Positions 1,972 through 63,240 of a DNA stretch of 64,000 nucleotides are shown here, in pieces. The notes under the pieces were generated by a model. It was given only the letters and a program-made list of their open reading frames with translations. It had not been told where the DNA came from and made no database searches. The DNA is taken from the NCBI GenBank assembly GCA_023935145.1, contig CM043698.1, positions 15,640,501 to 15,704,500 of the forward strand, in the 5' to 3' direction. The stretch comes from Bretschneidera sinensis. Lineage: Eukaryota; Streptophyta; Magnoliopsida; Brassicales; Akaniaceae. The position numbers were made by a program, and so were the translations under genes. The stretch's first letter is position 1. Each line of letters begins with the position of its first letter.

Positions 1972-4900
1972 TCAGAGATCCGCAAAAACAGCAAATATAT
2001 CACCATGGATGTAATCATTATCTACCAAGCTCACCAAAAAGTAGCTGCTCTCCACCTGCATGCATATGAAAAAACCACCGTATTACAATTACTGAACTTA
2101 ATATTTTTCATAAGAAAAAATAGAAAAATATCTCCTTCTTTCCCTTTCGCCGTGTGTTTCTTGATTAAATCCTAAAAAAAAAAGAAAATAGAATAGCATA
2201 TGTGTGAAGAACTTAATGAAAAAAAATACAAGATCGAACAAATTCACAAAGAGAGTCAACCTCTTCAAGCAATTTTCTTGATGGATCGCCCTCTGGGTAC
2301 AAGGCAGCCCATCCTCTTGACCAAATTTCAAATGCTTCATCCTTCCATACCATGAAGCTGGAAGGATCGACAACTGTTGGCTGGATAATCTCCTTTGCTG
2401 GGAAGACTCCCCAAGTTACAGCATTCACATCAGTTTCGTCAGCGTTAGATATCCAACACCGTTCTTTGTTCACAGCCATGTATGTTATATATGGAAAAGC
2501 CTTGCATTTGTCAACAAGTGCATTCAACTTATCCTTTGAGCAGAAAAACTCTAGATAAGCCTTCTGGTAAACATACCCTCCAGGCCCACCCCAACCTGCA
2601 AGCCATATACAGTCATAACAGGACAATAATACTTAAAGTCTAAAACAACAGAGAATTTTTTTTGAGAAAATTCAATAGCACACCAAAAGCTGTAAACTAA
2701 GTCATATGCAGGCATGATATCCTCCACTGTATTTATAAATTAATGCTATGAAACCCATATGAGACAAGGACACTTCTTCAAGGATGAGAAGGAAATAATT
2801 TCATTTTGTGAATTTCACTGGCATAAAAGTAACCCTATGAAACCTAGGAACTCCATGCCTTCCTGGTTATTTCAAAACTTGTGTTGCATCTTGTTAGATT
2901 CTTAACAATAGGATTTTAAAGAACTGCAAACCAGTAACCTCAACAAAATTAAACCTATATCTAAGCTCACATAAACTTGTCATAAAGAAATTCAATATGA
3001 TTAGATAAGTGATATAATGAGAGGAATCTTTAATGATAAAAAATTTTCAGAAGAACACGTCAGAGACAGACAACAAAAGTAAACATTCAAGCATAAAAAG
3101 TATTTACTTACCAACAGTGGGGGAGTCAGATTTTTCCCCATTGACTGCTGGCTGGCTATTGATGGTAAGGAAACCCTTCAAGTTGATTTTCCCCAGCTGT
3201 TCATTTATGATCCTTGTCTCTGGCTGAAGCCCATCCAATTCAGACCAAGGACTACTTCTCAAATTCCCTAGGCAGTATTTCTGAAATTTCTGATATGTCA
3301 CAATTGGAAATGAAGGGCATTAGCATCTCTGACTACATTTGATTGGATAAAAAGTAAAGAACACTACATGCCGTTTAACATGGAAACACTACCTCAAGTA
3401 CATCTTCAATACTTTTCAAGGGGACAGCCCATTCTTCAAGAAGCTTTTTGTCGCGAGCACGTGGCCGCATGAACTGTCCAGAAAATTATTAGGTCAGAAG
3501 GAGCCAGCTGAAATGAATAAATAGACAACGGCACATCTTCAAACCAAGTCAAGGTTCAACATATCAACCCATCAATTGAAACGTACTTCGAGAAGACAAC
3601 CAAAGACAACATTAGTAATTTCCACAGACAAACGTACAGACTCATGAACTGTCCAGAAAATTATTAGGTCAGAAGTAGCCAGCTGAAATGAATAAATAGA
3701 CAACGGCACATCTTCAAACCAAGTCAAGGTTCAACATATCAACCCATCAATTGAAACGTACTTTGGGAAGACAACAAAGACAACATTAGTAATTTCCACA
3801 GACAAACGTACAGACTCATGAACTGTCCAGAAAATTATTAGGTCAGAAGTAGCCAGCTGAAATGAATAAATAGACAACGGCACATCTTCAAACCAAGTCA
3901 AGGTTCAACATATCAACCCATCAATTGAAACATACTTCGAGAAGACAACCAAAGACAACATTAGTAATTTCCACAGACAAACGTACAGACTCATAGACAT
4001 GTATGGATAAATATGTTTCACAGATTACATTCACTTTGTGTCTCCATTGAAAATATTATACATAGGTACATATGGTTCTGTTTCAACTTTTCAAAGCAAG
4101 ACTACCCTGGAAGAGAAATGAAATTTAACAATGGAAAAACTAGGACAAATACGAAACTGGGTAGCAAACTTACACTAGACCAGTGGCTAAGACTATTTTG
4201 CCATTTATTTTATAAGAAAAGCTAAGACTATTTAATACAGCTTTTACTAATGCTAAGATTTCGTTGTCTCGCATACAACTAGTGAAGCATTAAAGAGTCT
4301 TCTGAAAGAATCTCAAGGGCCTCTTGAGACAGTTTCACTTAGAAAAACTCTCCAACAAGAACTCTCAAGTTTTCAGCAACATAGTCTGATGCAGTCAATC
4401 TTTTTTTTGGATAAAGTAAAGTATATTCACTAAGCGCACCAAGGGGGTGCAAACCCAGAAACAAAATCATTTACAAGACAAAAAATCAATAAACTCTAAA
4501 AGCTTTTCCTCATTAAAGAAGAAGTGCCTGCCAAAAAAAATTTAAGAGTGTGGAGCCATCTATCTTTTTTTTAATAAAGGTGTGGAGCCATCTATCTTTA
4601 ATTACACCTATAGGCTTTTCCACCCCATCAAACAATCTTCTATTTCTCTCACTCCAAACAATCCAAAAAATCGAAAAAGGAATTAAGCAACAAGCTTTCC
4701 CCAACTCTTTAGGACGTCTAACCCTTTTCCAAGTACAAATTTCACCCTTAACTGAACTTGCCACGACCCAACTCAAACCAATAATCACATAGGCCATTTC
4801 ATAATTGTCTAGTCCATGGGCACCATAACAAAAGGTGTGGGACAGACTCGGCCTCTTGCTTACAAAGATAACACCGATTAACAAGAATCTTTCATCAACT

Positions 4901-35186: not shown

Positions 35187-36545
35187 TCAGACGAGCATGT
35201 AAGAAGCTGAGAATGGGAAGGTAGAAAACCCCAGGGGAGTATGAACATGGCTCCACTTAGTATTACCAGTACTAGTATCCCTCTCCATTATGAAGCTCCC
35301 TTCTCTTTTACATTCTTCATCTCCCAATCCTCTGCCACCACTAATCATTGCAAACACCCGATTCTTCTGTTTACCATAATCTAGACTTGTTGTCGCAAAA
35401 CTGGTTGAACCAATCATGTTACTTGGAATTGGAATTGAATTAGCAATCAGCTTCCAATTTTTCTCCTTATCCTCAAATTCCTCAACCCCCTCCTCATGTT
35501 GCTGTTGTTGGGTTCCCAAGAACCACCACCATTGGCACTGATCCTTGAAATTGAGCGCAGTGGTGGTTCCTCTGGGGCTTGTTTTACGAAATGGCCAAAC
35601 CTTTTCAATTTTAGACCAATACCCACTTACAGGATCATAGCATTCAGCATCAGATTTGAATTCTCCTTGGTTTTCAGTGCCATATCCACTCACTACACAG
35701 AACCTCAAATCCCCATCTCCCTCCCAAGAGAGTCCCTTGCATTCGTCTCTTCCTTGTGCCATCTCTGGTAACATCTTCCACTCGTTTTTCTCCACATCGT
35801 ACACTTCAGCTGAACGCAGTGCGTTCTTCTGGTTGTCGTGTCCACCTGCCACGTACACCGTTGAGGGCCCCACCACCGCGCAGGCGAAGAAAGAGCGTGG
35901 GACCGACATGGGAGCCCCTCGTCTCCAGCTGCACTGCTTCTCTCCTCCGGTGAAATCAAGGATGTATACATCACTTACAGGCTCAAGGGTATCTGGGTCC
36001 CAGCCACCTAAGAGCAATAATTTGCTGGAGGAAGGAATCGCCACACATTCGCAGAACATGGGGATTCCTCCCTTTTTAAACCGAATTCTCTGCCATCTGT
36101 CATGGGTCGCATTGTAGATGCTCACTCCATACTGTGGTGGGCTGTAGATCTGCTGCTGGTGCTGCTGTTGCTGGTTCTCTTCGTTCTTGGTGATATTGGT
36201 CCTTGTAATCTCATCATAAATTACCTCGATGAAATATTCTTCTTCCTCTTCCTCTTCCTCTTCCTCTTCCTCTGCTGGTGGTACTGGGAGAGGTTGTACA
36301 AGGCAAACAAGGTGCTCTGCTTTGCCAGATTTGCGTCTTTCTTGATAAAAGGAAGGGTGAGATATCAAGTTTCGCCAACAATGGCAAACCAATTTCATGT
36401 TGGAATGGAATTCGTAAGGCACTCTTACCATGCACTCCACGGCTATCTCAACAGGCAGACCTGGAATCAAGTTGTCAATTTTCTTCCCCGCATCTCCCAT
36501 TTTTTTAACTTTCTGCCTATGAATTTGATACTCAGATCTCTTCAA
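35187..36545 (-). CDS. F-box/kelch-repeat protein, SKIP20/KMD type, 452 aa, single exon
   Basis: Predicted substrate receptor of an SCF (SKP1-cullin-F-box) ubiquitin ligase. Arabidopsis relatives (KFB/KISS ME DEADLY) target phenylalanine ammonia-lyase and type-B response regulators; that role is by family only. The F-box is at about residues 27-70 (LIPGLPVEIAVECMV, MKLVCHCWRNLISHPSFYQE), followed by GKAEHLVCLVQPLPVPP. Kelch motifs follow: LLLLGGWDPDTLEPVSDVYI, VYVAGGHDNQKNALRSAEVY, GRDECKGLSWEGD, CVVSGYGTENQGEF and YDPVSGYWSKIEKVW. A run of about 12 Glu and a Gln-rich stretch (ENQQQQHQQQ) sit between the F-box and the first kelch repeat. The frame opens at MKRSEYQ; an in-frame Met at residue 16 (MGDAGKK) is an equally plausible start. 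Length is a little above SKIP20 (about 420 aa) because of the low-complexity insert. No intron, as usual in this family. Confidence 0.93.
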   Translation of the reverse strand: MKRSEYQIHRQKVKKMGDAGKKIDNLIPGLPVEIAVECMVRVPYEFHSNMKLVCHCWRNLISHPSFYQERRKSGKAEHLVCLVQPLPVPPAEEEEEEEEEEEEYFIEVIYDEITRTNITKNEENQQQQHQQQIYSPPQYGVSIYNATHDRWQRIRFKKGGIPMFCECVAIPSSSKLLLLGGWDPDTLEPVSDVYILDFTGGEKQCSWRRGAPMSVPRSFFACAVVGPSTVYVAGGHDNQKNALRSAEVYDVEKNEWKMLPEMAQGRDECKGLSWEGDGDLRFCVVSGYGTENQGEFKSDAECYDPVSGYWSKIEKVWPFRKTSPRGTTTALNFKDQCQWWWFLGTQQQQHEEGVEEFEDKEKNWKLIANSIPIPSNMIGSTSFATTSLDYGKQKNRVFAMISGGRGLGDEECKREGSFIMERDTSTGNTKWSHVHTPLGFSTFPFSASYMLV

Positions 36546-49014: not shown

Positions 49015-49657
49015 TGTTTGAATTTTACAACTCAAATTTTTGGGAAAAAAAAAACATAATTGTAATAATTAAATAACCAAAACAAACAAAGATTAATAAC
49101 ACAACAATAATCTCATTGTTTACGCCTACCAATAAATCCCACCGGTTTATTAATCTTTAATTATAATTTTAGAAACAGTAAAGTTGTTATACTCTCATTA
49201 CCTCACAACTCAAAAGCTCTAACACACACAAAGCTCTCAATCTATCTCTAGTTGTAAGCGTGTTCTCTACTTAACAACTCAAAACCTCAATACACCCAAA
49301 ACTCTCAACCTAGCTCTAATTGTAAGCGTGTTCTCCACTTAACAACTCAAAACCTCAACATATTCAAAGCTCTCAACCTAACTATAGTAGTAAACCCTTA
49401 TGATTTATATTGTATATTGAAATTGTGAGTATGCCTCAAACTTTCTCTAGGACTCCTTTTATATAGAGGATATTTTTCTAGTACTGCTATGAAAAGGATA
49501 ACAATATCATAGTAAACTACTACAACTTGTACATGCAACAATCCAATAGGAAACTACTACTCCTTCTATTAGAACAAGTAATTATAAAAGAGAAAACTAC
49601 TTTTCCCCAAACCAATTAGAAGTCTTCATTGTGGGAATTTGAGCCAAAATCCTAACA
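49015..49657 (-). repeat. 3' LTR of the oldest Copia-type element (layer 1)
   Basis: On the minus strand it begins TGTTAGGATTTTGGCTCAAA (plus-strand end CCTAACA at 49657) and ends at about 49015. It parallels the LTRs of layer 2 in U3 (TGTTAGGATTTTGGCTCAATT) and also the 50143-50310/62866-63240 pieces. Internal repeats of AACTCAAAACCTCAA(T/C)A occur two to three times. It is preceded on the minus strand by GAATTTGAGTCAAGGTGGACG, the equivalent of a PPT region. Confidence 0.7.
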
Positions 49658-50820: not shown

Positions 50821-51292
50821 ATGTTGACAGGTATACCTAAATTTGATATTCCTTTATTTAATAGAAGCAACAATTTTACTCTGTGGTAGAGTACAATTCA
50901 AGATCTTCTAGTGCAACAAGATCTTGATAAGACTTTAGAGGAAGAAAAGCTAAAAAAGGTGACTGACAGAAAGTGACAATCGATTCAGAGGAAGACTGTA
51001 AGTACAATCAGGTTAGCTCTTGCTCCCGAGATCAAGTATACTGTGTTGAAAGAAACTAAACCCAAAGGTTTGTGGGATAAGCTCGAGAGCATCTATGCGT
51101 TAAAGTCTTTGACCAACAGATTGTGTCTCAAGATGAACCTCTATTCTCTAAATATGGAAGAAGGTACAAGTCTTCATGATCACTTGAATGAATTTAACAA
51201 GTTAATGTCTCAATTGTTGAACACAGAAGAAATATTGAAGGATGAGGAGAAGTCATTCCTCTTTTTATAATCTTTACCAAAATCTTACAAAC
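50821..51292 (+). pseudogene. Decayed Copia gag, 5' part (layer 2)
   Basis: From ATG 50821 (MLTGIPKFDIPLFN) the frame has internal stops, then stays open from 51043 to 51270. It reads ETKPKGLWDKLESIYALKS and EGTSLHDHLNEFNKLMSQLL, the UBN2/gag core of Copia elements. The stop in FLFL*SLPKSYK shows it is dead. The young element inserted right after this SLPKSYK codon run, and gag resumes at 61534. Confidence 0.85.
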
Positions 51293-52543
51293 TGTAGCTC
51301 GAGGTTTCAACCCAAGAGGGGGGGTGAATTGGGTTTTTAAAAACTTTTGCGGAATTTATACAAGTTTATAAAAACTGATAAGCAACAAATAATTGATACA
51401 AGTAGAAAGCTGTAAATAAAGAGTTTAAGGAAAGAGGATGCAAACACAGTTATAGTGGTTCGGCAATATCGGATTCGTTCCGACCCTACGTCCACTCTCT
51501 TCAAGGAACTCCTTGAAGTAATCCACTAAGAAAACTTAGTCGCACAACTTAGCCGGGTGTTGCACAAACCGTACACAAGCAATTTACAGGAATTGCTTAA
51601 ACCGAAAAATCCCCTTCCTTTCGGAAGTTTCCCCTTCCTCTCGGAAGTAATCCCTTTACAAAGATGGTGTAAAGTAAAAGGTAGAGAGACAACAAATGAA
51701 AGCTTATTACAACAGAAATGTCTCTCTTTCAAAGTAAAGCTTGAAGAAATGGCTCAATAAGATTATTTCAAAGCTTTTTGTGTTTCAAGAGTATAAAAAC
51801 TTGATTATATGAGATCAACTCTTTTTGAATATGTGCTGCTTGTTATTGAATGCTTTGCTGAGTGGGTTTATATAGCAATCAATTAATATGGCCGTTTTGG
51901 ACTTTAATTTGAAAAAGATTTACTTTAAAACGTTCAGATTTGGAGTCCAACGGTCATATTTTTGAACTACCAGTCGACTGGGTCGAGATACCAGTCGACT
52001 GGGTTCACTTGAAAAATATACGTTTTCAGACCTTCTGGGTATCCAGTCGACTGGTATATATCATCCAGTCGACTGGGGACTTTCTGTCCATTTTACCAGT
52101 CGACTGGGTTGATTCATCCAGTCGACTGGAGACTTACTGGTCAAAGTACCAGTCGACTGGGTTGTTTGATCCAGTCGACTGGGTTCCTTCTGACCTTTAT
52201 ACCAGTCGACTGGTATATGTACCCAGTCGACTGGGTTGTCTTCCAACCCAGTTTTTCTTCTGTTTTTCATTTAAAAACATTTTAAAATTAATGGTTTTAG
52301 AAAAACCATTTGTGTTTGAGCCATTAAACAAGCTAATACAATGTATGAGTGAGACTTACATTGGTTCTAAACCTTAAGACCTATACTAGATCTTCAGTCT
52401 TCACTTGATACTTGATTTGGTTCGAGTTTTTGCACTTTGTTCCTTGGTTGAATGTGTTTGATCCTTAATACAACTTAGTTTAAACATGTTAGTTAAATAA
52501 CAGTTGTGTTTTGCCATCATTAAAATACGGGCGAGGGTCAACA
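51293..52543 (-). repeat. 3' LTR of the young Copia element
   Basis: Direct repeat of 60283-61533. On the minus strand U3 carries ten CCAGTCGACTGG palindromes (51970-52234), then a TATA box (TATATAAA, 51867-51874), then R/U5. Reading frames full of PVDW/SRL/STG across this LTR are by-products of the palindromes. Confidence 0.95.
51970..52234. promoter_or_regulatory. Array of ten CCAGTCGACTGG palindromes, 3' LTR
   Basis: Exact 12-bp palindromes start at 51970, 51991, 52043, 52065, 52096, 52118, 52149, 52171, 52202 and 52223. They form five pairs with spacings of 21-22 bp inside pairs and 31 bp (once 52) between pairs. Spacer sequences differ while the core is invariant. The nearest palindrome is about 95 bp upstream of the LTR TATA box on the minus strand. 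Confidence 0.9.
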
Positions 52544-52557
52544 ATCTCCCCCTTTTT
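52544..52557 (-). other. Polypurine tract of the young element
   Basis: Minus strand AAAAAGGGGGAGAT lies directly before the 3' LTR start (TGTTGACCC). This is the primer for plus-strand DNA synthesis and is typical of Copia elements. Confidence 0.9.
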
Positions 52558-53085
52558 GATGATGACAAAACTAATAATGTAAAAACAGTTTTAAAAACTA
52601 AGTGTTAAGATTTTACAAAAATTTGGACAGAGTCTCCTCTGTTTTTCGAGTAAAACCACCCTGTAAACAAGCAAACACAGTTTATATTTCTTTCAACCAA
52701 TCCAGAATTAAACTCAACCAATCAATAAACATTTTTACATAGATATGGAGCAATGCTCCCCCTAAATCTATGCATTGGTTGCGTTTTTACTTAGATTTTC
52801 TCGTTTTTCTCATTTTTCTCCCCCGTTTTGACAACAGCAACCAAAGGGGGCAGAACAATTAACAAATAAGCTATGAGACAAACAGATATTTAAAAAACAG
52901 TTCTAACATATCACAAATAGCTTAAATAAATGCAAGAAATATGGCTTATAGTATTACATCATCATAGAAAAAGTCAATACAAGTAGAGTCTTATAGAGCC
53001 ATAACTAAGAAAAAACAAACATGAGATGTCCGTGCTAAGTGACAAATACTGGAAAAGTGCTAAGAACTGATTAAATGAATGAGAC

Positions 53086-54342
53086 TCATGGTGCGGGAGA
53101 GTCCGAGCTGTCACGAAGAAGTTCCCTAATCTCAGCTAGGGAACCCTCGGTGTGCTCTCGATGTAACTCGAAGTCATCCCGTAGATGGTCTATGGAGGAG
53201 CTCAGCCTCTGATAATCGGACTGCATGGACTGAAAACCGGATTCCATCGTCATCTGAAGACTCGTGATAGCTCGTAGGATGTCACCATATCCAGTCTGAC
53301 CAGTACTCGAGCCACCAATGGGAGGTGCTCGGGTATCTGTCTCCATCTCAGCAGCCGTATCAGCATCCTCACCACTGTCACTCGCATCCTCTCGAATCCT
53401 TAGGCGCTTTCCAGCCTTAGGATAGAGAAACCCTTCACGAACAGTACATCCCATCTTCTTCAGAGATGAGATGTTGATGATATCCGTCAATCCGATATCC
53501 TGAGCCTCGGAGGCAGGCAAAGGTACCCGGAAGTGCTGGAGGATGAGTGTAATGAGCATCCCATAAGGAAGACACCCGGAGTCGTTTGCTTCACCGTTTA
53601 TCATGTTGGCGAGCAGCAGAGGATATATATTGAAGTGGTGCCCAGATTTTAGGCACCAAATCAATACCGTATCTATTTTAGATAGATACCCTCGACTCCC
53701 GAGTCTCGGGTGGATGGTCCAACTGACAATCAATTGAAACATTTTTGAGTCGAGGGGCAAGTCACTACATGTGTGAAATGTAGTGGGTCTGTACACATAG
53801 TTAGGGTCGCCCCTGACTATCCGACAGGCCTCCTCAACTTCAAAGTTGTCTGGCCATCCATCCAGACTCCATTGAACCCCCCTTATAGGGATTCTCAGAA
53901 TGCTCATCAAGAGGTCAGTGTTGACCTCAAACTCCACACCGCTAACTCTGGTTCTGAATCTCAGAGCCAGAGGACTGGGTTTCACCAAGTTCGCATAGAA
54001 CTGGTGAATCAGTCGCGGGTAATATTTTTCATGAATACTGACCAGTGGGGTCAGATTTATTGCCTCAAAGGCTGGAAGAATATCGAAATTACCATGACGA
54101 ATGGAGTCGAAATCAACGACTCTACCCGTCATGATTTTCTTGTGACGGATTATAGAGTTATACCTCTTATGAGCAGCTGGGCTGAAAAACAGAGCCTGCT
54201 CCAACTCTGTTCTGGACTCCTTGCTGGATGACCCTGCTACTCCCTTCCCTTTTGATTCCGAAGCCGAAGGTTTTGAAGACCTAGGCTTTTTGGGCGCATT
54301 AGGTCCACTTGTTGTGAGTTTTATACGGATTTTGTCACTCAT
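53086..54342 (-). CDS. Extra ORF (418 aa) in the env-like position of the young element
   Basis: Intact ORF, sense with the element, between pol and the 3' LTR. Residues 1-45 are basic and Ser/Lys-rich (NAPKKPRSSKPSASESKG). Residues about 60-290 resemble the 'putative plant transposon protein' domain found in many plant repeat ORFs: KIMTGRVVDFDSI, YYPRLIHQFYANLV, VSGVEFEVNTDLLMSILRIP, LIVSWTIHPR. An acidic linker (ASDSGEDADTAAEMETD) follows, then a C-terminal helical, coiled-coil-like region (SLQMTMESGFQSMQSDYQRL, LREDxF-type heptads). There is no signal peptide and no membrane segment, so it does not look like an envelope protein. The ATG lies about 210 bp downstream of a private TATA box and palindrome array. 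The domain name is from memory; function unknown. Confidence 0.85.
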   Translation of the reverse strand: MSDKIRIKLTTSGPNAPKKPRSSKPSASESKGKGVAGSSSKESRTELEQALFFSPAAHKRYNSIIRHKKIMTGRVVDFDSIRHGNFDILPAFEAINLTPLVSIHEKYYPRLIHQFYANLVKPSPLALRFRTRVSGVEFEVNTDLLMSILRIPIRGVQWSLDGWPDNFEVEEACRIVRGDPNYVYRPTTFHTCSDLPLDSKMFQLIVSWTIHPRLGSRGYLSKIDTVLIWCLKSGHHFNIYPLLLANMINGEANDSGCLPYGMLITLILQHFRVPLPASEAQDIGLTDIINISSLKKMGCTVREGFLYPKAGKRLRIREDASDSGEDADTAAEMETDTRAPPIGGSSTGQTGYGDILRAITSLQMTMESGFQSMQSDYQRLSSSIDHLRDDFELHREHTEGSLAEIRELLRDSSDSPAP

Positions 54343-54552
54343 TTTCGAGAAATTTGAAGTTTTTGGAAAAAGGAAATTTGGTAAAAATGAGAGATTGTAA
54401 CCGTAGAAAGTTAAAAATCTCTTTAGGAATGAGTAGATCGGTGTGTTTAGAAGGGATTTGGATGATTTTTAGATCAAAAAGATGAATTTTTCTAGAGAGA
54501 GAAAGCTTGGGTTCTTTGAAAATGGCGTAAAGAGGGCGAAAATGAACAGTCC

Positions 54553-54560
54553 CTTTTATA
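54553..54560 (-). promoter_or_regulatory. Candidate TATA box for the extra ORF
   Basis: Minus strand GATTTTATAAAAGGG contains TATAAAAG. It lies 12 bp downstream of the last palindrome and about 210 bp upstream of the ORF start at 54342. It copies the palindromes-then-TATA order of the LTR U3. Confidence 0.6.
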
Positions 54561-54571
54561 AAATCGCGATA

Positions 54572-54909
54572 CCAGTCGACTGGGTAAACTTACCAGTCGA
54601 CTGGGCCCTTTTGTAAAGATGAACAGTTTCTCTTACCAGTCGACTGGGTAAACGTACCAGTCGACTGGATCAACTGACAGTGAGATACCAGTCTACTGGG
54701 CTATTGTTACCAGTCGACTGGGGGTTCAAAAAAAATGAAAAAATTTGGCTCCAAGCATGATTTGATTTTATAGACGACTGGAGAAGACTTACCAGTCGTC
54801 TGGAGTTTTTGGCAGAGAGTTACCAGTCGACTGGGTCAAAATTACCAGTCGACTGGAAAAACAGGCAGAGACTTACCAGTCGACTGGAGAACATTTACCA
54901 GTCGACTGG
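54572..54909. promoter_or_regulatory. Internal array of about twelve CCAGTCGACTGG palindromes
   Basis: Sites start at 54572, 54593, 54636, 54657, 54688 (one mismatch), 54710, 54770 (half-degenerate), 54792 (one mismatch), 54823, 54845, 54876 and 54898. They again form pairs 21-22 bp apart, with most pair-to-pair steps 31 bp (others 43 and 60). The array lies between the pol stop and the extra ORF. Spacer sequences are unlike those in the LTR. Confidence 0.9.
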
Positions 54910-55049
54910 ATCCTGAGTAAAATTTCCAGTCCTGAATTTTTAGCACGATTTTGTTTATCTATGACATTTTTGAGTGAAGGGAATAATTAAACATGGATTA
55001 ATACTCTATCACTCAATGTCAAACATGCAAATGATGAAATGAGATGCAA

Positions 55050-58000
55050 TCAAACATTCAATTTATCAAAATCAAGCAATCCCATCAACTTTCTTATTTT
55101 GCAAAAACTAGCTTCACTTAAGGGTTTTGTAAGAATATCAGCTATTTGATCTTCTGAAGGTATAAATTCTAATCTTATATCACCTTTTTGAGCATGGTCT
55201 CTTAAGAAATGATGTCTAATCTCTATATGCTTGGTTCTAGAGTGCTGAATAGGATTTTTGGTTAGGTTGATGGCACTAGTATTATCACAAAATATAGGAA
55301 TATTTTTGAGACTCATGCCATAGTCTTCTAGTTGTTGTTTCATCCATAATACCTGGGCACAACAACTGCCAGCTGCTACATATTCCGCCTCAGCGGTTGA
55401 TAGTGCAACTGAATTCTGTTTCTTGGAGAACCAAGAAGTTAACATAGCACCTAAGAATTGGCATGTTCCACTTGTGCTTTTTCTATCTAACCTACATCCA
55501 GCAAAATCAGCATCCGAATATCCTACTAGCTCAAAAGATGATTCTCTAGAATACCATAATCCTATGGTCTGGGTCCCTTGTAGATATCTAAGGATTCTTT
55601 TTACTGCAACTACATGTGATTCCTTAGGATTAGATTGAAATCTAGCGCACATGCATACACTGAACATTATATCAGGTCTACTTGCAGTCAAGTACAGTAA
55701 AGCACCTATCATGCTTCTATAATATTTAGAATCTACAGTTTTACCTCCTTCATCAAGATCAAGTTTGGTGGTTGTGCTCATAGGCGTTCCAATTGGCTTT
55801 GAGCTTTCCATCCCGAACCTCTTTAGTAGATCTTTGATGTACTTTTGTTGATTGATGAAGATACCTCCTTTTAGTTGCTTGATTTGCAGTCCAAGGAAGT
55901 AGGTAAGTTCTCCCATCATGCTCATTTCAAATTCACCTTGCATGCACTTTGCAAACTCTTGACACATAGATTCATTAGTAGCACCAAATATAATATCATC
56001 AACATATATTTGAACTATCAAAGTGTCATTTTTGTGAGTTTTTGTGAAGAGAGTTGTATCTATTTTTCCTCTTACAAAATCATTATCAATCAAAAATTTG
56101 CTTAGTCTTTCGTACCATGCCCTTGGAGCTTGCTTCAGCCCATATAAAGCCTTAGAAAGCTTGTAGACATGATTTGGAAGACTAGGATTTTCAAAACCAA
56201 GAGGTTGTTCAACATAAACCTCTTCTTCTATAAAGCCATTTAAAAAGGCACTTTTCACATCCATTTGAAATAGCTTGAATTTATTAAAGCATGCAAAGGC
56301 TAATAACATTCGAATAGCTTCTAATCTAGCTACGGGAGCATAGGTTTCATCAAAATCTATTCCTTCCTCTTGATTATATCCCTTAGCAACTAGCCTAGCC
56401 TTATTTCTAGTTACTATACCATTTTCATCCATTTTATTTCTATATACCCATTTAGTTCCAATAATTGAATGATCTTTAGGTCTTGGAACTAGTTCCCAAA
56501 CATTGTTTCTCTCAAATTGATTTATCTCTTCCTGCATTGCAATTATCCAATCATTATCTTTTTCAGCTTCTATAAATGTCTTAGGTTCTACTTGAGACAA
56601 ATAAGCTACAAAATTGCAAATATTTCTAATGGAAGAACGAGTTCTTACCCCTTGTGAAGGATCACCAATTACTTGATCAATTGGATGATGATTTACATAC
56701 CTCCAATCCTTGGGTAGATTTTCCTCTTGTTGACTTGAGGATGGTTGGTCCAAATTTGGAGTTGCCATCCCTTCATTTGTTTGAGAAGAACTCACTTTTG
56801 GGTCAACAATGGGAGTAGAAGTTTCCATTCTTGGAATAAAATCTGCATCATCTTTAAAGGAAACTTCTCCACTACTCATTGGGTTAGATTCATCAATAGT
56901 TACATGCACAGATTCTTCTACTACTAGAGTTCTCTTATTGAAAACTCTATAAGCCTTACTAGTAGTAGAATATCCTAAAAATATCCCTTCATCGGTCTTG
57001 GAATCAAATTTACCCAAGTTAGTTTTATTGTTATTTAAGATGAAGCACTTACTACCAAAGGCACGAAAATAGGAAATATTGGGCTTTCTCCCTTTCCATA
57101 GTTCATAAGGAGTTTTATCAAGCAGGGGCCTTATCAAAATTCTATTTAAAATATAGCAAGAAGTATTCACGGCTTCAGCCCAAAAATATTTTGGTAAATT
57201 ATTTTCACAAAGCATTGTTCTTGAAAATTCTTCTAGAACTCTATTTTTCCTCTCAACAACTCCATTTTGTTGAGGAGTTCTAGGAGCTGAAAAGTTGTGA
57301 TTAATTCCATTTTCATCACAAAATTTTGAAAAGCTTTGATTTTCAAATTCTTTGCCATGATCACTTCTTATGCTTGAAATACAAATTCCTTTTTCATTTT
57401 GTACCTTTTTGCAAAACTTTTCAAATCCTTTGAAAGCTTCATCCTTATAAGCAATAAAAATAACAAAGGTATATCTTGAATAGTCATCAACAATAACAAG
57501 AGCATATTGATGGCCACCTAGACTAATGGTACTAATTGGACCAAATAAGTCCATATGCAAAAGTTCCAAAGGTCTAGTAGTTGAGACAACATTTTTTGCT
57601 TTGAAAGATATCCTTGATTGTTTTCCCATTTGACAAGCATTGCAAATTTTATTTTTCTCAAAATTGATTTTAGGAAGACCAATAACTAAATCTTTTCTTG
57701 AAACAATTTTTAGCAAGTTCATATTTACATGACCAAGCCTTCTATGCCATAGCCATTGATTTTCACTAAAAGCAGGAAAACATTTTTCATTATTGGAATG
57801 TAAGGATTTCAAATCAACTATATAGACATTTTCATGTCTATGGCCAATGAATTTGATCTTGTTGCTCTTGATGTCTATAACTAGACAATGAGAGGTCTCA
57901 AATGTGACTTTATATCCTTTGTCACATAATTGACTAATGCTAAGTAAATTTGGCTTTAAGCCTTGTACTAGCAATACATTATCTAAAGTTGAGAAATCAT

Positions 58001-58172
58001 TACCGACTTTTCCATGCCCGATGATCTTTATTTTAGTATTGTCTCCAATGGTCACAAGTCCACCATCTCTTAGAGTTAGCTCCTTGAATACGCTTTTATC
58101 ACCGGTCATATGCTTCGAGCAACCGCTATCAAGGTACCAACAGTTACCTTTCTCCTTGGTATGAAGGCAAAT
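55050..58172 (-). CDS. pol: Copia pol: protease, integrase, reverse transcriptase, RNase H
   Basis: Open frame of about 1040 codons; the first internal Met is at 58109. The protease active site [14 protein letters not shown] lies at its very start. GAG-pre-integrase has [10 protein letters not shown]...CNACQMGKQ (HHCC zinc finger). The integrase core has [28 protein letters not shown] and [17 protein letters not shown] (D,D,E). RT has [44 protein letters not shown] and the catalytic YVDD ([10 protein letters not shown]). RNase H has [31 protein letters not shown] and ILTKPL. There is no frameshift or internal stop. Enzymes act in virus-like particles in the cytoplasm; integrase acts in the nucleus. 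It is in the same frame as gag, separated from it by a single TAG. Confidence 0.95.
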
Positions 58173-60227
58173 CTACATCACACAAGGATATACGATAGCA
58201 TTTTTAGGTACCCAAAATTTCTTGGGTCCTTTGGGGTTAGTTCTTGAAAATACGGTTCCTTTTGGGACCCATACTTTCTTAACAATATATGGTGCTCTAT
58301 GAACATGTTGATGATGCACATACCTAGCATTATAGTCATAGTAATTTCTAGGAAATTTTACATGTGCATTCCTATAATCCTTAGGATGATAGTTCCTAGG
58401 ATACATGATTCTACGGTAAGGGGTATGAAAATGCATGTCATTTCCAGAAAATGAACGATGATGCATTCTAGGATACATGCTAGCATATGTATGCAAGTTA
58501 TTTCTAGAATAGCCATGATGGTGATTCCTAGGATGAGCAGAATGCATTCTTTGATTATACACATTGTTCCTAGAATGAGCATGATGATTATTTCTAGGAT
58601 GTGTATGAGCATTTCTAGAATGAGCATACAAATAAGCATGAGTATTTTTAGGATGCTTCAATTTAGTATGATCATTTAAGTTTCTAGAGTTCCTCGGATT
58701 TATTAAGGGAGTGCTTTTAACAAGGTTAGGAGCTTTCGAAGTAGAAGCTCCATCTACACAAGAGGCTTTCATGAATAAGCTCTCTTTTGTTTTTTGTTTT
58801 CCCAATGGAGAATATCCTACACCAGATTTTCCTCCACTTAATCTTTGGGAAGAAAGCACTTCATCAAGTTTTTCTTTACCAAGCATAAGTCTAGATACAG
58901 TGCTGTTTAATTCAGAAATTTTATTTTTCAAATTCTCATTTTCATCTTTAAGAAAATCTTGAGACGAATTATACAGTAAAGATGATAATTTTTCTTTTTC
59001 TTCTCTAAGAACTATCATTTCCTTAGAAAGAGATGATACTTCTTTCTTAAGAACAGAATTTCTAGAATCAAATTTCTTTAATTCTTCATGCATTTCATTT
59101 ATGACTTCTAGTAATTCTTCACTACTAGTAACAATATTATTTTTTGAAGAGGGAGAAGATGTTACCTCACTTTCATCATCGATTGCCATTAAACAGAGGT
59201 TGGCAATCTCTTCGTATCCAATTTCTTTGTCTGATGACTCATCTTCTTCGTCATCGCTCCAGGTAGTTGCTACCATAGCTTTCTTCTTGAAGCCCTTGTA
59301 TGGTTTGCTTGAAACTGGACAGTCAGCTTTTATATGTCCTGGCTTCTTGCAGCCATAGCACATAAGTGGTTCCCTTTTTGAGGTGGGATCCTTTGAGTAA
59401 GGTTTCTTGCTTTTCTTCAAGAACCTATGGAATCGTCTGGTGATTAAAGCCATTTCACCATCCTCTTCACTGCTCTCTGCTTCTTGTTCTAATTCCTTTT
59501 CTTTGTTGCTCGTAGAAGCTTTGAGAGCAATTTGCTTCTTCTTCTTCTCATCATCATTGACGATGGGAGTCATTTCTTCCATCTCGTATGTCAATAATGA
59601 CCCAAGCAGCGTCTCAACATCAAGCTTGTCAAGATTTTTGGCCTCTTGAATGGCTGTCCTCTTTGGTTTCCATTCTGGAGGTAGAGATCTTAAGATTTTT
59701 CTGGTTAGTTCAACTTCCTCAATATTCTTGCCAAGCAATTTTAAACTATTTATAATAGTAGTAAATCGTGAGTGCATTTCAGAAATGGTTTCATTAGGAG
59801 ACATCTTAAAAGATTCATATTCAGAAATTAGCATGTAAATTTTAGACTTTTTTACTTCACTTGTTCCTTCATATGTGACTTGCAATTTGTCCCATATTTC
59901 TTTAGCAGAAACGCATGCAGATATTTTGTTATATTCAGAAATATCTAAAGCACAATGTAGCATGCTTGTTGCTCTGCTATTGAGAGACATTGTTCTACAA
60001 TCCTCGTCAGTAAACTCAGTTTTGAGTTTAGGCATTGTATGAAGAGTCTCTCCAATAACTATTTCTTTTGAGGGAATTTTAGGTCCCTCTTCTATAATTC
60101 TCCATAGATTGTAATCTTGTCCTTCGACGAAGATTTTCATTCTATTTTTCCAGTAGTTATAATTTGATCCATTGAACAATGGAGGTCTAGTATAAGAGTG
60201 TCCCTCAGAGTAGCTATTTGCTGCCAT
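58173..60227 (-). CDS. gag: Copia gag polyprotein, 684 aa
   Basis: Starts MAANSYSEGHSYTRPPLF, followed by NGSNYNYWKNRMKIFVEGQ (Copia gag N-terminal domain) and the UBN2-type core (EIWDKLQVTYEGTSEVKKSK, SEMHSRFTTIINSLKLLGK, KILRSLPPEWKPK). One CCHC zinc knuckle, CYGCKKPGHIKADC, lies near residue 290. A long coiled-coil stretch with heptads (EELLEVINEMHEELKKFDS...) comes next. A C-terminal His/Asn/Arg-rich repeat region with recurrent PRN/SRN units (about residues 540-650) ends the protein. It forms the capsid of the virus-like particle. The frame ends at TAG (58173-58175), directly upstream of and in frame with pol. The start is close behind the PBS and LTR, as expected. Confidence 0.93.
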   Translation of the reverse strand: MAANSYSEGHSYTRPPLFNGSNYNYWKNRMKIFVEGQDYNLWRIIEEGPKIPSKEIVIGETLHTMPKLKTEFTDEDCRTMSLNSRATSMLHCALDISEYNKISACVSAKEIWDKLQVTYEGTSEVKKSKIYMLISEYESFKMSPNETISEMHSRFTTIINSLKLLGKNIEEVELTRKILRSLPPEWKPKRTAIQEAKNLDKLDVETLLGSLLTYEMEEMTPIVNDDEKKKKQIALKASTSNKEKELEQEAESSEEDGEMALITRRFHRFLKKSKKPYSKDPTSKREPLMCYGCKKPGHIKADCPVSSKPYKGFKKKAMVATTWSDDEEDESSDKEIGYEEIANLCLMAIDDESEVTSSPSSKNNIVTSSEELLEVINEMHEELKKFDSRNSVLKKEVSSLSKEMIVLREEKEKLSSLLYNSSQDFLKDENENLKNKISELNSTVSRLMLGKEKLDEVLSSQRLSGGKSGVGYSPLGKQKTKESLFMKASCVDGASTSKAPNLVKSTPLINPRNSRNLNDHTKLKHPKNTHAYLYAHSRNAHTHPRNNHHAHSRNNVYNQRMHSAHPRNHHHGYSRNNLHTYASMYPRMHHRSFSGNDMHFHTPYRRIMYPRNYHPKDYRNAHVKFPRNYYDYNARYVHHQHVHRAPYIVKKVWVPKGTVFSRTNPKGPKKFWVPKNAIVYPCVM

Positions 60228-60268
60228 TGGATCAACTCTAGGATTTTAAGCCTTATAAAGAGAACTAG

Positions 60269-60280
60269 GCTCTGATACCA
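60269..60280 (-). other. Primer-binding site (initiator tRNA-Met)
   Basis: Minus strand TGGTATCAGAGC, two bases inside the 5' LTR edge. It is complementary to the 3' end of initiator tRNA-Met, the usual primer for Copia minus-strand synthesis. Confidence 0.95.
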
Positions 60281-60282
60281 AT

Positions 60283-61533
60283 TGTAGCTCGAGGTTTCAA
60301 CCCAAGAGGGGGGGTGAATTGGGTTTTTAAAAACTTTTGCGGAATTTATACAAGTTTATAAAAACTGATAAGCAACAAATAATTGATACAAGTAGAAAGC
60401 TGTAAATAAAGAGTTTAAGGAAAGAGGATGCAAACACAGTTATAGTGGTTCGGCAATATCGGATTCGTTCCGACCCTACGTCCACTCTCTTCAAGGAACT
60501 CCTTGAAGTAATCCACTAAGAAAACTTAGTCGCACAACTTAGCCGGGTGTTGCACAAACCGTACACAAGCAATTTACAGGAATTGCTTAAACCGAAAAAT
60601 CCCCTTCCTTTCGGAAGTTTCCCCTTCCTCTCGGAAGTAATCCCTTTACAAAGATGGTGTAAAGTAAAAGGTAGAGAGACAACAAATGAAAGCTTATTAC
60701 AACAGAAATGTCTCTCTTTCAAAGTAAAGCTTGAAGAAATGGCTCAATAAGATTATTTCAAAGCTTTTTGTGTTTCAAGAGTATAAAAACTTGATTATAT
60801 GAGATCAACTCTTTTTGAATATGTGCTGCTTGTTATTGAATGCTTTGCTGAGTGGGTTTATATAGCAATCAATTAATATGGCCGTTTTGGACTTTAATTT
60901 GAAAAAGATTTACTTTAAAACGTTCAGATTTGGAGTCCAACGGTCATATTTTTGAACTACCAGTCGACTGGGTCGAGATACCAGTCGACTGGGTTCACTT
61001 GAAAAATATACGTTTTCAGACCTTCTGGGTATCCAGTCGACTGGTATATATCATCCAGTCGACTGGGGACTTTCTGTCCATTTTACCAGTCGACTGGGTT
61101 GATTCATCCAGTCGACTGGAGACTTACTGGTCAAAGTACCAGTCGACTGGGTTGTTTGATCCAGTCGACTGGGTTCCTTCTGACCTTTATACCAGTCGAC
61201 TGGTATATGTACCCAGTCGACTGGGTTGTCTTCCAACCCAGTTTTTCTTCTGTTTTTCATTTAAAAACATTTTAAAATTAATGGTTTTAGAAAAACCATT
61301 TGTGTTTGAGCCATTAAACAAGCTAATACAATGTATGAGTGAGACTTACATTGGTTCTAAACCTTAAGACCTATACTAGATCTTCAGTCTTCACTTGATA
61401 CTTGATTTGGTTCGAGTTTTTGCACTTTGTTCCTTGGTTGAATGTGTTTGATCCTTAATACAACTTAGTTTAAACATGTTAGTTAAATAACAGTTGTGTT
61501 TTGCCATCATTAAAATACGGGCGAGGGTCAACA
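60283..61533 (-). repeat. 5' LTR of the young Copia element
   Basis: Same 1251-bp sequence as 51293-52543. It acts as the promoter LTR on the minus strand: U3 is from 61533 downward, the palindrome array is at 60960-61224, and the TATA box (TATATAAA) is at 60857-60864. Confidence 0.95.
60960..61224. promoter_or_regulatory. Array of ten CCAGTCGACTGG palindromes, 5' LTR U3
   Basis: Same ten sites as in the 3' LTR, shifted by 8990 bp. It sits roughly 310-575 bp into U3 and about 95 bp upstream of the TATA box, the position expected for an enhancer. Confidence 0.9.
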
Positions 61534-62422
61534 CAAACCATTGGTGCAAACATGGTTGGTGGGCAAGTAAACATTGAGTTTAAATGATGTGACCGTGCTT
61601 CTACGTGAGAATGAAAGGTTGATGGGAAATGAGAGCTTGTCTTGTGGTAGTCAAGTGCTTCCTGTGGAGAGGTGTAATCGAAGAATGAGCCAATGGAGAA
61701 CGAACAGTGGCTCAAGGTAGAGATCCAAATCTAGTCCCAAAGATGACGATGACAATGAGTGCTTCTATTGTGGAGAGATAGAACAAATATAATATTATTT
61801 TAAGGGCATGAAGGATGATTTAAAGGAATTGAGAAGGATGAGTGGGAATAAGAGTCATGATGGTAAGAGTAGTGAAAATGTTAATATCACCAAGGGAAGT
61901 GATGAAGAGGTGCTAGCTATTGAGCATATTGAAGAAAAAGTTGATAAGTTTAATATGATGCTACTTGATTCGACGTCCTCCATTCACATATTCAATAAGA
62001 AGAAATACTTTGGTTGTATATAGGAACCTACATATGTCAAAGTTGCTACCGCATGTGGGAAACACAAAGCAATTGATAGTGAAAGAAGCTTAAGGTTGAA
62101 GCTCCATGATGTAAACGCGAAGACACTTGAGAAGGTAAAGTTTGCTTCCTCTCTCACTACATATATCACCTTTTTAGTGGAACTTGATAAGATAGGATAC
62201 ATATTGACTGCATGTAATGGAGAACTGCAAGTTCTTATTGGATTAAATGTAGTGCTGAAGACTACTATGAACAAGAAGGGCTTGTATGTGTTGGATGAGA
62301 ATATTTTGATTGGAAAATTAGGTGGATGAGATATAGAATGACCAAAAAGAAGGATCGCACCAACCAAGAAGAAAGTTAGATTTGTTGATGAGGTGTGGAG
62401 AATTTGAGCCAAGATGGAGATT
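61534..62422 (+). pseudogene. Decayed Copia gag 3' part with protease and pre-integrase traces (layer 2)
   Basis: Continues the layer-2 gag from the target duplication (PLVQTWLVGK). A zinc-knuckle remnant follows (NECFYCGEIEQI), then DDLKELRRMSGNKSHDG. A protease-like MLLDSTSSIHIFNKKK and a GAG-pre-integrase-like stretch (DKIGYILTACNGEL...KKGLYVLDE) come after. Several stops interrupt it. It then runs into the PPT-like GATGGAGATT and the right LTR, with no integrase or RT. Confidence 0.75.
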
Positions 62423-62865: not shown

Positions 62866-63240
62866 CAATACAACTTTAGGAAAAGCAAAGTTGCTAAAAT
62901 CTTACTACCTCACAACCCAAAAGACCTAATATATACACCCAAAGCTCTCAACCTTGCTCTAGTTATAAGTGTTTTCTCTACTTTATAACCCAAAACCACA
63001 ATCACCCAAAGCTTTCAATCTAGCTTTAGTGTAAGTGTTTTTTCTACTTGACAACCCAAAACCACAATACACCCTAAGCTCTCAACCTAACTCTAGTAGT
63101 AAACCTATTTAATTTATATTGTATATTGAAATTGTGAGTGTACCTCAAACCTTACGTAGATGATATTTTTCTAATACTACCAGGAAAAGGACAACAACAT
63201 TATAGTAAACTACTACAACTTGTATAAGCAACAATCCAAG
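62866..63240 (-). repeat. Right part of the layer-1 5' LTR, truncated
   Basis: Homologous to 49195-49545 of the layer-1 3' LTR (shared CTCAACCT(A/T)(A/G)CTCTAGT words, TTTATATTGTATATTGAAAT, TAGTAAACTACTACAACTTG). Homology stops near 63240, so the outer U3 end (TGTTAGG...) is missing. Confidence 0.65.

Follow-up and report, generated by a model that had tools for sequence, protein, structure and literature searches.

The DNA studied here, called the window below, is a stretch of 64,000 nucleotides from Bretschneidera sinensis (GCA_023935145.1, CM043698.1:15,640,501-15,704,500, forward strand), and the genome-wide counts refer to the whole plant assembly of 1.21 Gb in which it lies. The window contains a 10,241-bp retrotransposon that occupies 51293-61533 on the minus strand and so reads from right to left, with the TSD CAAAC at 61534-61538, outside the 5' LTR, and at 51288-51292, outside the 3' LTR. 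Its features, in the order in which the element is read, are the following.

60283..61533, minus strand: 5' LTR, 1251 bp, identical to 51293-52543, with the PBS on its inner side
60960..61224, minus strand: U3 array of the 5' LTR, 10 exact cores
60269..60277, minus strand: PBS TATCAGAGC, preceded by ATTGG
58173..60227, minus strand: gag (Retrotran_gag_2)
55050..58109, minus strand: pol (gag_pre-integrase, integrase core, RVT_2)
54572..54909, minus strand: linker array between pol and the third ORF, 12 sites, 9 of them exact
54553..54560, minus strand: putative internal-promoter TATA TATAAAAG, 11 bp past the last linker core
53086..54342, minus strand: third ORF, 418 aa, PF20167 (Transposase_32, putative plant transposon protein), in ENV-like position
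52546..52553, minus strand: PPT AGGGGGAG, adjoining the 3' LTR
51970..52234, minus strand: U3 array of the 3' LTR, 10 exact cores
51867..51875, minus strand: LTR TATA box CTATATAAA, 95 bp past the array, with a second copy in the identical 5' LTR
51293..52543, minus strand: 3' LTR, 1251 bp, identical to the 5' LTR

Judged by its sequence, the element is a Sirevirus-type copia retrotransposon; it is young and of a known Sirevirus type. The domains follow the copia order, gag_2, gag_pre-integrase and integrase core and then RVT_2, and the PBS and PPT junctions are those described by Bousios et al. (2010, PMC2829016), a paper that is cited here and below from excerpts of its text. The junction between 5' LTR and PBS, CA-ATTGG-TATCAGAGC, matches the Sirevirus definition of that source exactly. 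A second exact PPT copy, AGGGGGAG, lies at 52756-52763 and the 7-mer GGGGGAG at 52818, in agreement with the repeated PPT of Sireviruses, for which the same excerpts give a mean of four copies. The Sirevirus polyC-rich signal near the LTR 3' end was also considered, and CACCCCCCCTC was found by eye about 25 bp before the LTR end. A BLAST comparison of the element with the rest of the window (E 0.001) gave no match, and the IMG/VR contigs held no exact core pair and no confirmed relative of pol.

Similar tandem repeats of 67-68 bp flank the element at 49205-49393 and 62933-63102 (compared by eye), and may belong to an older element in which the retrotransposon landed. Farther away in the window there are an F-box/Kelch ORF of 452 aa (35187-36545, minus strand), an exon-like ORF that matches methylenetetrahydrofolate reductase, PF02219 (9482-9943, minus strand), and three 175-bp tandem copies with 97% matches at 3468-3994. 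At another place in the assembly (L022/L023, G000:C1:1608500-1630399), an old Sirevirus (L022a/L023b), whose own two LTRs differ by 4.3%, has been split by a younger copy of the window element's family (L022b/L023a).

The feature that concerns us is a perfect 12-bp palindrome, CCAGTCGACTGG, hereafter the core. Its exact copies in the element number 29: each LTR has 10, and the linker that separates pol from the third ORF has the other 9. The linker array also has three eroded sites, with a single change at 54688 and at 54792 and three changes at 54770. These counts bear out an earlier note on this DNA, which had listed ten palindromes per LTR and about twelve in the linker, and the step lengths that it gave were reproduced for both arrays: 21, 52, 22, 31, 22, 31, 22, 31 and 21 bp in the LTR, and 21, 43, 21, 31, 22, 60, 22, 31, 22, 31 and 22 bp in the linker, with the badly eroded site 54770 at the end of the 60-bp step. 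With up to three mismatches allowed, the window has 38 matches to the core, in comparison with a mean of 7.87 (sd 2.85, maximum 15) in 100 shuffles. Taking as clustered any palindrome of 8, 10 or 12 bp that is not purely A/T and occurs at least four times within 600 bp, the core is the only one in the window, listed together with its inner 8- and 10-mers. A literature search for the letters of the core returned nothing related, as judged by title.

Most sites are helically phased, as had been proposed, with a phase coherence at 10.5 bp of 0.94 in the LTR array and 0.88 in the linker array. Steps of 30, 50, 60 and 82 bp fall off whole turns. Coherence as high as observed arises in 1.0% (LTR) and 1.8% (linker) of the trials of a crude null in which the alternation of two steps is retained and, as the two arrays are related and not independent, phasing alone is modest evidence. 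The arrays have a CpG observed/expected ratio of 0.78 and 0.69 (with GC at only 0.48 and 0.46) versus 0.49 in the window. In the part of the LTR that lies on the TATA side of the array, the ratio reaches 0.74, similar to the 0.78 of the array itself, and for this element the 2010 paper's argument from CpG islands therefore adds little.

Spacing was also counted over the whole genome. Pairs of exact cores are separated by a gap of 9-10 in 14757 cases and by a gap of 19 in 7156 cases, far above the 300 pairs with the other gaps below 19, namely 53 with gaps 0-8 and 247 with gaps 11-18, where gap 18 accounts for 42 of the 50 places listed. A reversed-pattern control gave 0 matches for every gap class counted. 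In 24 arrays from 12 stretches, all in the first 2.94 Mb of contig C1, 133 of 160 steps measure 21, 22 or 31 bp, the remaining ones being of 42-43 (3), 50-53 (19) or 74-85 bp (5). The unique spacers of up to 20 nt in the aligned pieces, 66 from LTRs and 40 from linkers, are all 9, 10 or 19 nt long, and spacers of 18 nt turned up in later samples (L032, L054 and L060). For reference, small indels in the flanks of diverged LTRs occur at 0.029 per bp. The gap lengths are thus near-fixed, although the letters of the aligned spacers differ by about 37%, and the spacing does not vary freely.

The position of the arrays with respect to TATA-like boxes is also near-fixed, in both places where the element uses the array. 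In the LTR, the distance from the end of the array to the TATA-like box is 94-96 bp in 18 of 19 LTRs from 14 elements (the window's included), even though the array varies from 135 to 265 bp in length and the LTR flanks are up to about 32% diverged; the exception is L023b, with 74 bp, and three LTRs have an altered box, TATTTAAA or GTATAAA. In the linker, TATAAA is found 11 bp past the last core in 5 of 7 cases. The two remaining linkers, L020 and L021, have half an array and lack the TATA; with about 1.45 kb by coordinates, versus 2.5 kb, they seem too short for the third ORF. The linker of the old element in L022 keeps the TATA, while its main pieces are about 71-77% identical to those of the window. 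A TATA-like hexamer comes cheap in A/T-rich DNA. The longer string formed by the core, TATCGCGATT[C/T] and TATAAA occurs 941 times in the genome. Ten further linkers were selected by the core plus TATA pattern and, since this pattern contains the TATA, its conservation among them is not counted as evidence; in 7 of the 10 the distance from the start of the last core on to that of the ORF is 241-242 bp, and in the window it is 241 bp. Between LTR and linker, the distance from array to TATA differs by 84 bp, or eight turns, which may be chance. To judge from the sequence, the geometry at the linker TATA is consistent with the third ORF having its own internal promoter, and this would agree with Bousios et al., who, in the excerpts, favour an internal promoter for the ENV-like gene that they had not conclusively identified (PMC2829016).

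Sequence comparison between elements indicates which parts of the arrays are kept. When 13 other elements (one LTR each, all located within the initial 2.94 Mb of a single contig) are compared with the window LTR, differences amount to 107/1342 in cores (8.0%), 585/1595 in spacers (36.7%) and 2441/11996 in flanks (20.3%), where core conservation is inflated because the elements were found through an exact core pair, the core counts are lowered and the spacer counts raised because the aligner anchors on identical 12-mers, and the cells are not independent of each other. Change after insertion, measured in five LTR pairs of single elements, gives 10/478 in cores, 8/596 in spacers and 66/4067 in flanks, so that the cores are not protected at this stage. 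The contrast between the within-element and between-element figures (Fisher P 0.0017 for core/flank and 0.07 for spacer/flank) means that the cores are not mutational cold spots but are held between lineages. An alignment-free count in 10 diverged elements points in the same direction: among 75 sites with at most three mismatches, more altered sites being left out, 45 are exact, whereas 2.45 would be expected if they changed like the flanks. If one exact pair is left out for each element, the figures are 25 exact sites among 55, with 1.79 expected. For six linkers, the differences from the window are 92/739 in cores, 267/1054 in spacers, 277/1422 in the near flank and 98/672 in the far flank, totals that include L020 and L021, which lack the proximal half of the array and contribute 78 of the 92 core differences.

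A second sample was chosen by the flanks, with a 608-bp query without the array. It yielded at least 40 near-identical LTRs (40 of 1326 candidates were scored), the window's two included, and 20 of them were compared, no two from one visible LTR pair. Ten sites are present in 19 of these LTRs and nine in the other one. Their differences from the window are 6/2388 in cores, 6/2694 in flanks and 223/2859 in spacers, and the variable columns are 6/120, 6/135 and 25/145, respectively. Among these 20 near-identical LTRs, cores were not found to be less variable than flanks, so the constraint shows only between lineages, over older divergence. At 10 spacer positions, in four spacers, the window copy is unlike all 20 flank-chosen copies, and no core or flank difference from the window is shared by all 20.

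The claim that the core is kept while the spacers differ therefore holds for the comparison between elements, with 8% versus 37%, but the spacers of the LTR and linker arrays are not wholly unrelated. Compared in the same orientation, the 19-nt spacers of the two arrays are 27.4% identical (P 0.33); compared inverted, they reach 45.3%, against 27.3% in the null (P 0.001). No relation was found between the 10-nt spacers of the two arrays in either orientation, and the 9-nt ones are borderline (P 0.045 in the same orientation and 0.062 inverted), with only three linker spacers available. A lack of relation between LTR and linker spacers, and with it the idea of convergent spacing, is accordingly rejected. 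The 19-nt spacers of both arrays carry a weak motif near TGGnCAG, in LTR orientation, which has the opposite orientation in the linker. Within an array they are 58-61% identical, versus 27-28% when shuffled, which indicates that a unit of about 53 bp was duplicated as the arrays grew; such units have been gained and lost among elements. Inversion is also seen at the level of single spacers. One spacer of L047 is the exact reverse complement of the spacer that its near-identical relatives have in that slot, and L018 and L019 provide a second case of exact inversion in place. These are two cases among 68 unique LTR spacers and none among 36 linker spacers. As the core is palindromic, such flips leave a site unchanged.

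Arrays of this kind are known. They are the Sirevirus RM boxes, described since 2010 as palindromic repeated motifs in 13 Sireviruses with 8 to 32 copies each, which in the LTR are mostly clustered in its upper half, shortly before a conserved TATA (Bousios et al., PMC2829016, excerpts). According to Table 3 of that source, all nine RM-bearing Sireviruses with an ENV-like gene have extra copies, nearly all of them upstream of ENV. The present arrays share with these boxes, as far as the excerpts describe them, the dyad-symmetric palindrome, the number of copies (at least 8), the LTR cluster before a TATA and its recurrence upstream of an ENV-like gene, since pol is on one side of the array at 54572-54909 and the ORF at 53086-54342 on the other. 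They differ in the core itself: CCAGTCGACTGG has the form CAG...CTG and not CGG...CCG, a form found in 12 of the 13 RMs listed and not obligatory, as Tnd-1 is an exception (PMC2829016, excerpts). The Tnd-1 motif, ACAATCGATTGT, also has TCGA at its centre, as the present core does; by the same table, Tnd-1 has neither an ENV-like gene nor linker copies. The RM of a Vitis Sirevirus, CGGTCGACCG (Table 3), has the GTCGAC centre in common with the present core and differs from its inner ten bases, CAGTCGACTG, at two symmetric positions, both by transitions, and it is of the CGG-CCG form. It is tempting to see the present core as a CpG-decayed CGG-CCG box, but exact CCGGTCGACCGG pairs at gaps of 5-25 number 0 in this genome, and the idea stays a guess. 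The excerpted text of PMC2829016 gives no account of paired near-fixed spacing, an inverted relation between the arrays, spacer inversion or a linker TATA. As far as we have seen in the literature searched, what is new is in the details: the variant core, the genome-wide near-fixed spacing, the inversion of spacers and the positioned internal TATA.

On these grounds we think it probable that both arrays are RM boxes of the class found in ENV-bearing Sireviruses and that their function lies in the DNA, as a platform on which a dyad-symmetric binding protein, probably of the host, docks at two promoters. With cores about whole turns apart, bound dimers would line up near the TATA box. The platform in U3, which ends 95 bp before its TATA, would serve the genomic transcript, and that in the linker, which ends 11 bp before its own, a separate transcript of the third ORF that would start from the internal TATA. 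We infer that the protein binds as a dimer and activates rather than represses. A core that reads the same on both strands allows units to be flipped, swapped or deleted while every remaining site stays intact, and this would be why the spacers turn over quickly whereas core and grid persist. A bolder version of this mechanism holds that only the core and its rotational spacing are selected and that the spacers are continually inverted or replaced, which would shield the promoter from host small RNAs without moving the sites; the inverted grid would drive the second promoter, that of the third ORF, whose protein may bind both arrays. We consider this version unlikely.

Small RNAs may also be given the main role. 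The arrays would then be mainly targets of small RNAs and DNA methylation, kept at a cost to the element, and spacer turnover would be an escape from small RNAs. In maize Sireviruses, the parts of the LTR rich in palindromes evolve fast and are hotspots of small RNAs (PMC5311732 and PMC10760457, excerpts). Here too, it is the spacers that change fastest between elements, and the 10 positions at which the window copy departs from all flank-chosen copies lie in spacers. Of 65 changes in decaying cores, 46 are C>T or G>A, as expected of methylated DNA. Such pressure explains fast spacers but not the persistence of the core and of the gap lengths, and it is compatible with a regulatory function without replacing it. 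As the main explanation we judge it distinctly unlikely.

The earlier note had offered a reading at the RNA level, in which the self-complementary cores are kept for hairpins or intermolecular pairing in the genomic RNA, for dimerisation or packaging. Both arrays do fold more stably than dinucleotide shuffles (z -14.3, 0/200, and z -11.9, 0/100), and the pairs at gap 9-10 can form 12-bp stems with short loops, but good folding is expected of any array of repeated palindromes. Despite this very stable single-strand folding, altered core positions are compensated in the neighbouring core in 2 of 88 comparisons, the other 86 being single changes, and this rarity favours a function at the DNA level. 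Moreover, pairing into stems would not call for these particular loop lengths, 9-10 and 19 nt, or for a TATA at a near-fixed distance. Selection on RNA pairing thus appears quite improbable.

Next comes the possibility that the binder is the element's own third-ORF protein (PF20167), as a self-encoded activator or anti-silencing factor acting on both arrays. This ORF follows directly after the linker array and is intact at 418 aa in four copies, those of the window, L016, L027 and L023, the last three being 97-99% identical to the first. Residues 1-45 have a net charge of +8, with KKPR and KRLR clusters, and a simple hydropathy scan detected no transmembrane-like stretch (largest 19-residue mean 1.19). 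A transmembrane segment and a coiled coil are named as a common trait of Sirevirus ENV-like genes in the excerpts of PMC3414828, which also doubts their envelope label; for the third ORF, we take "envelope" as a positional label only, and a doubtful one. A structure model from the four near-identical copies has a long C-terminal helix with residues 371-410 as its most confident part, but is unusable as a whole (mean pLDDT 36.6). The domain search matched no known DNA-binding domain, and no protein relatives were found at E 0.001 among 5033 candidates. Elements that supply their own binder do exist: in VANDAL elements, the VANC proteins bind to arrays of short motifs within the noncoding DNA of the element itself (PMC5735166 and PMC10398659, excerpts). 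Those arrays are likewise dense and turn over fast, but they have the motif YAGTATTAY, belong to a DNA transposon and have a known element-encoded binder. In Sireviruses, linker boxes accompany the ENV-like ORF in 9 of 9 RM-bearing elements with ENV (Table 3), yet four Sireviruses without the ORF retain LTR boxes and six other ENV-bearing ones have no boxes (PMC2829016, excerpts). Similarly, L020 and L021 retain their LTR arrays with linkers that, by estimate, look too short for the ORF. We therefore regard a self-encoded binder as very improbable.

Least probable of all is ordinary tandem-repeat drift with homogenisation and no function, which would account for the related spacers within arrays, the duplication, gain and loss of the unit of about 53 bp and the lack of core protection in near-identical LTRs, but not for cores that diverge less than flanks between lineages, though not after insertion, or for gap lengths and a TATA distance that are near-fixed while array length varies; gene conversion that renews 12-bp cores and spares spacers of 9-19 bp seems unlikely too. 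The earlier note had named as signs of such drift a core no better kept than the spacers or a freely varying spacing. Within the sampling limits given above, we find instead a kept core, a near-fixed spacing and an array used twice near a TATA.

To return to the docking platform at two promoters, we think that this family offers a natural experiment, with one core, near-fixed gaps, freely changing spacers and many copies. The contrast between core, gap and spacer could separate selection for protein binding from the pressure of host small RNAs, and the linker TATA, together with the string that recurs 941 times, gives an exact place to look for the transcript starts of the ENV-like gene.
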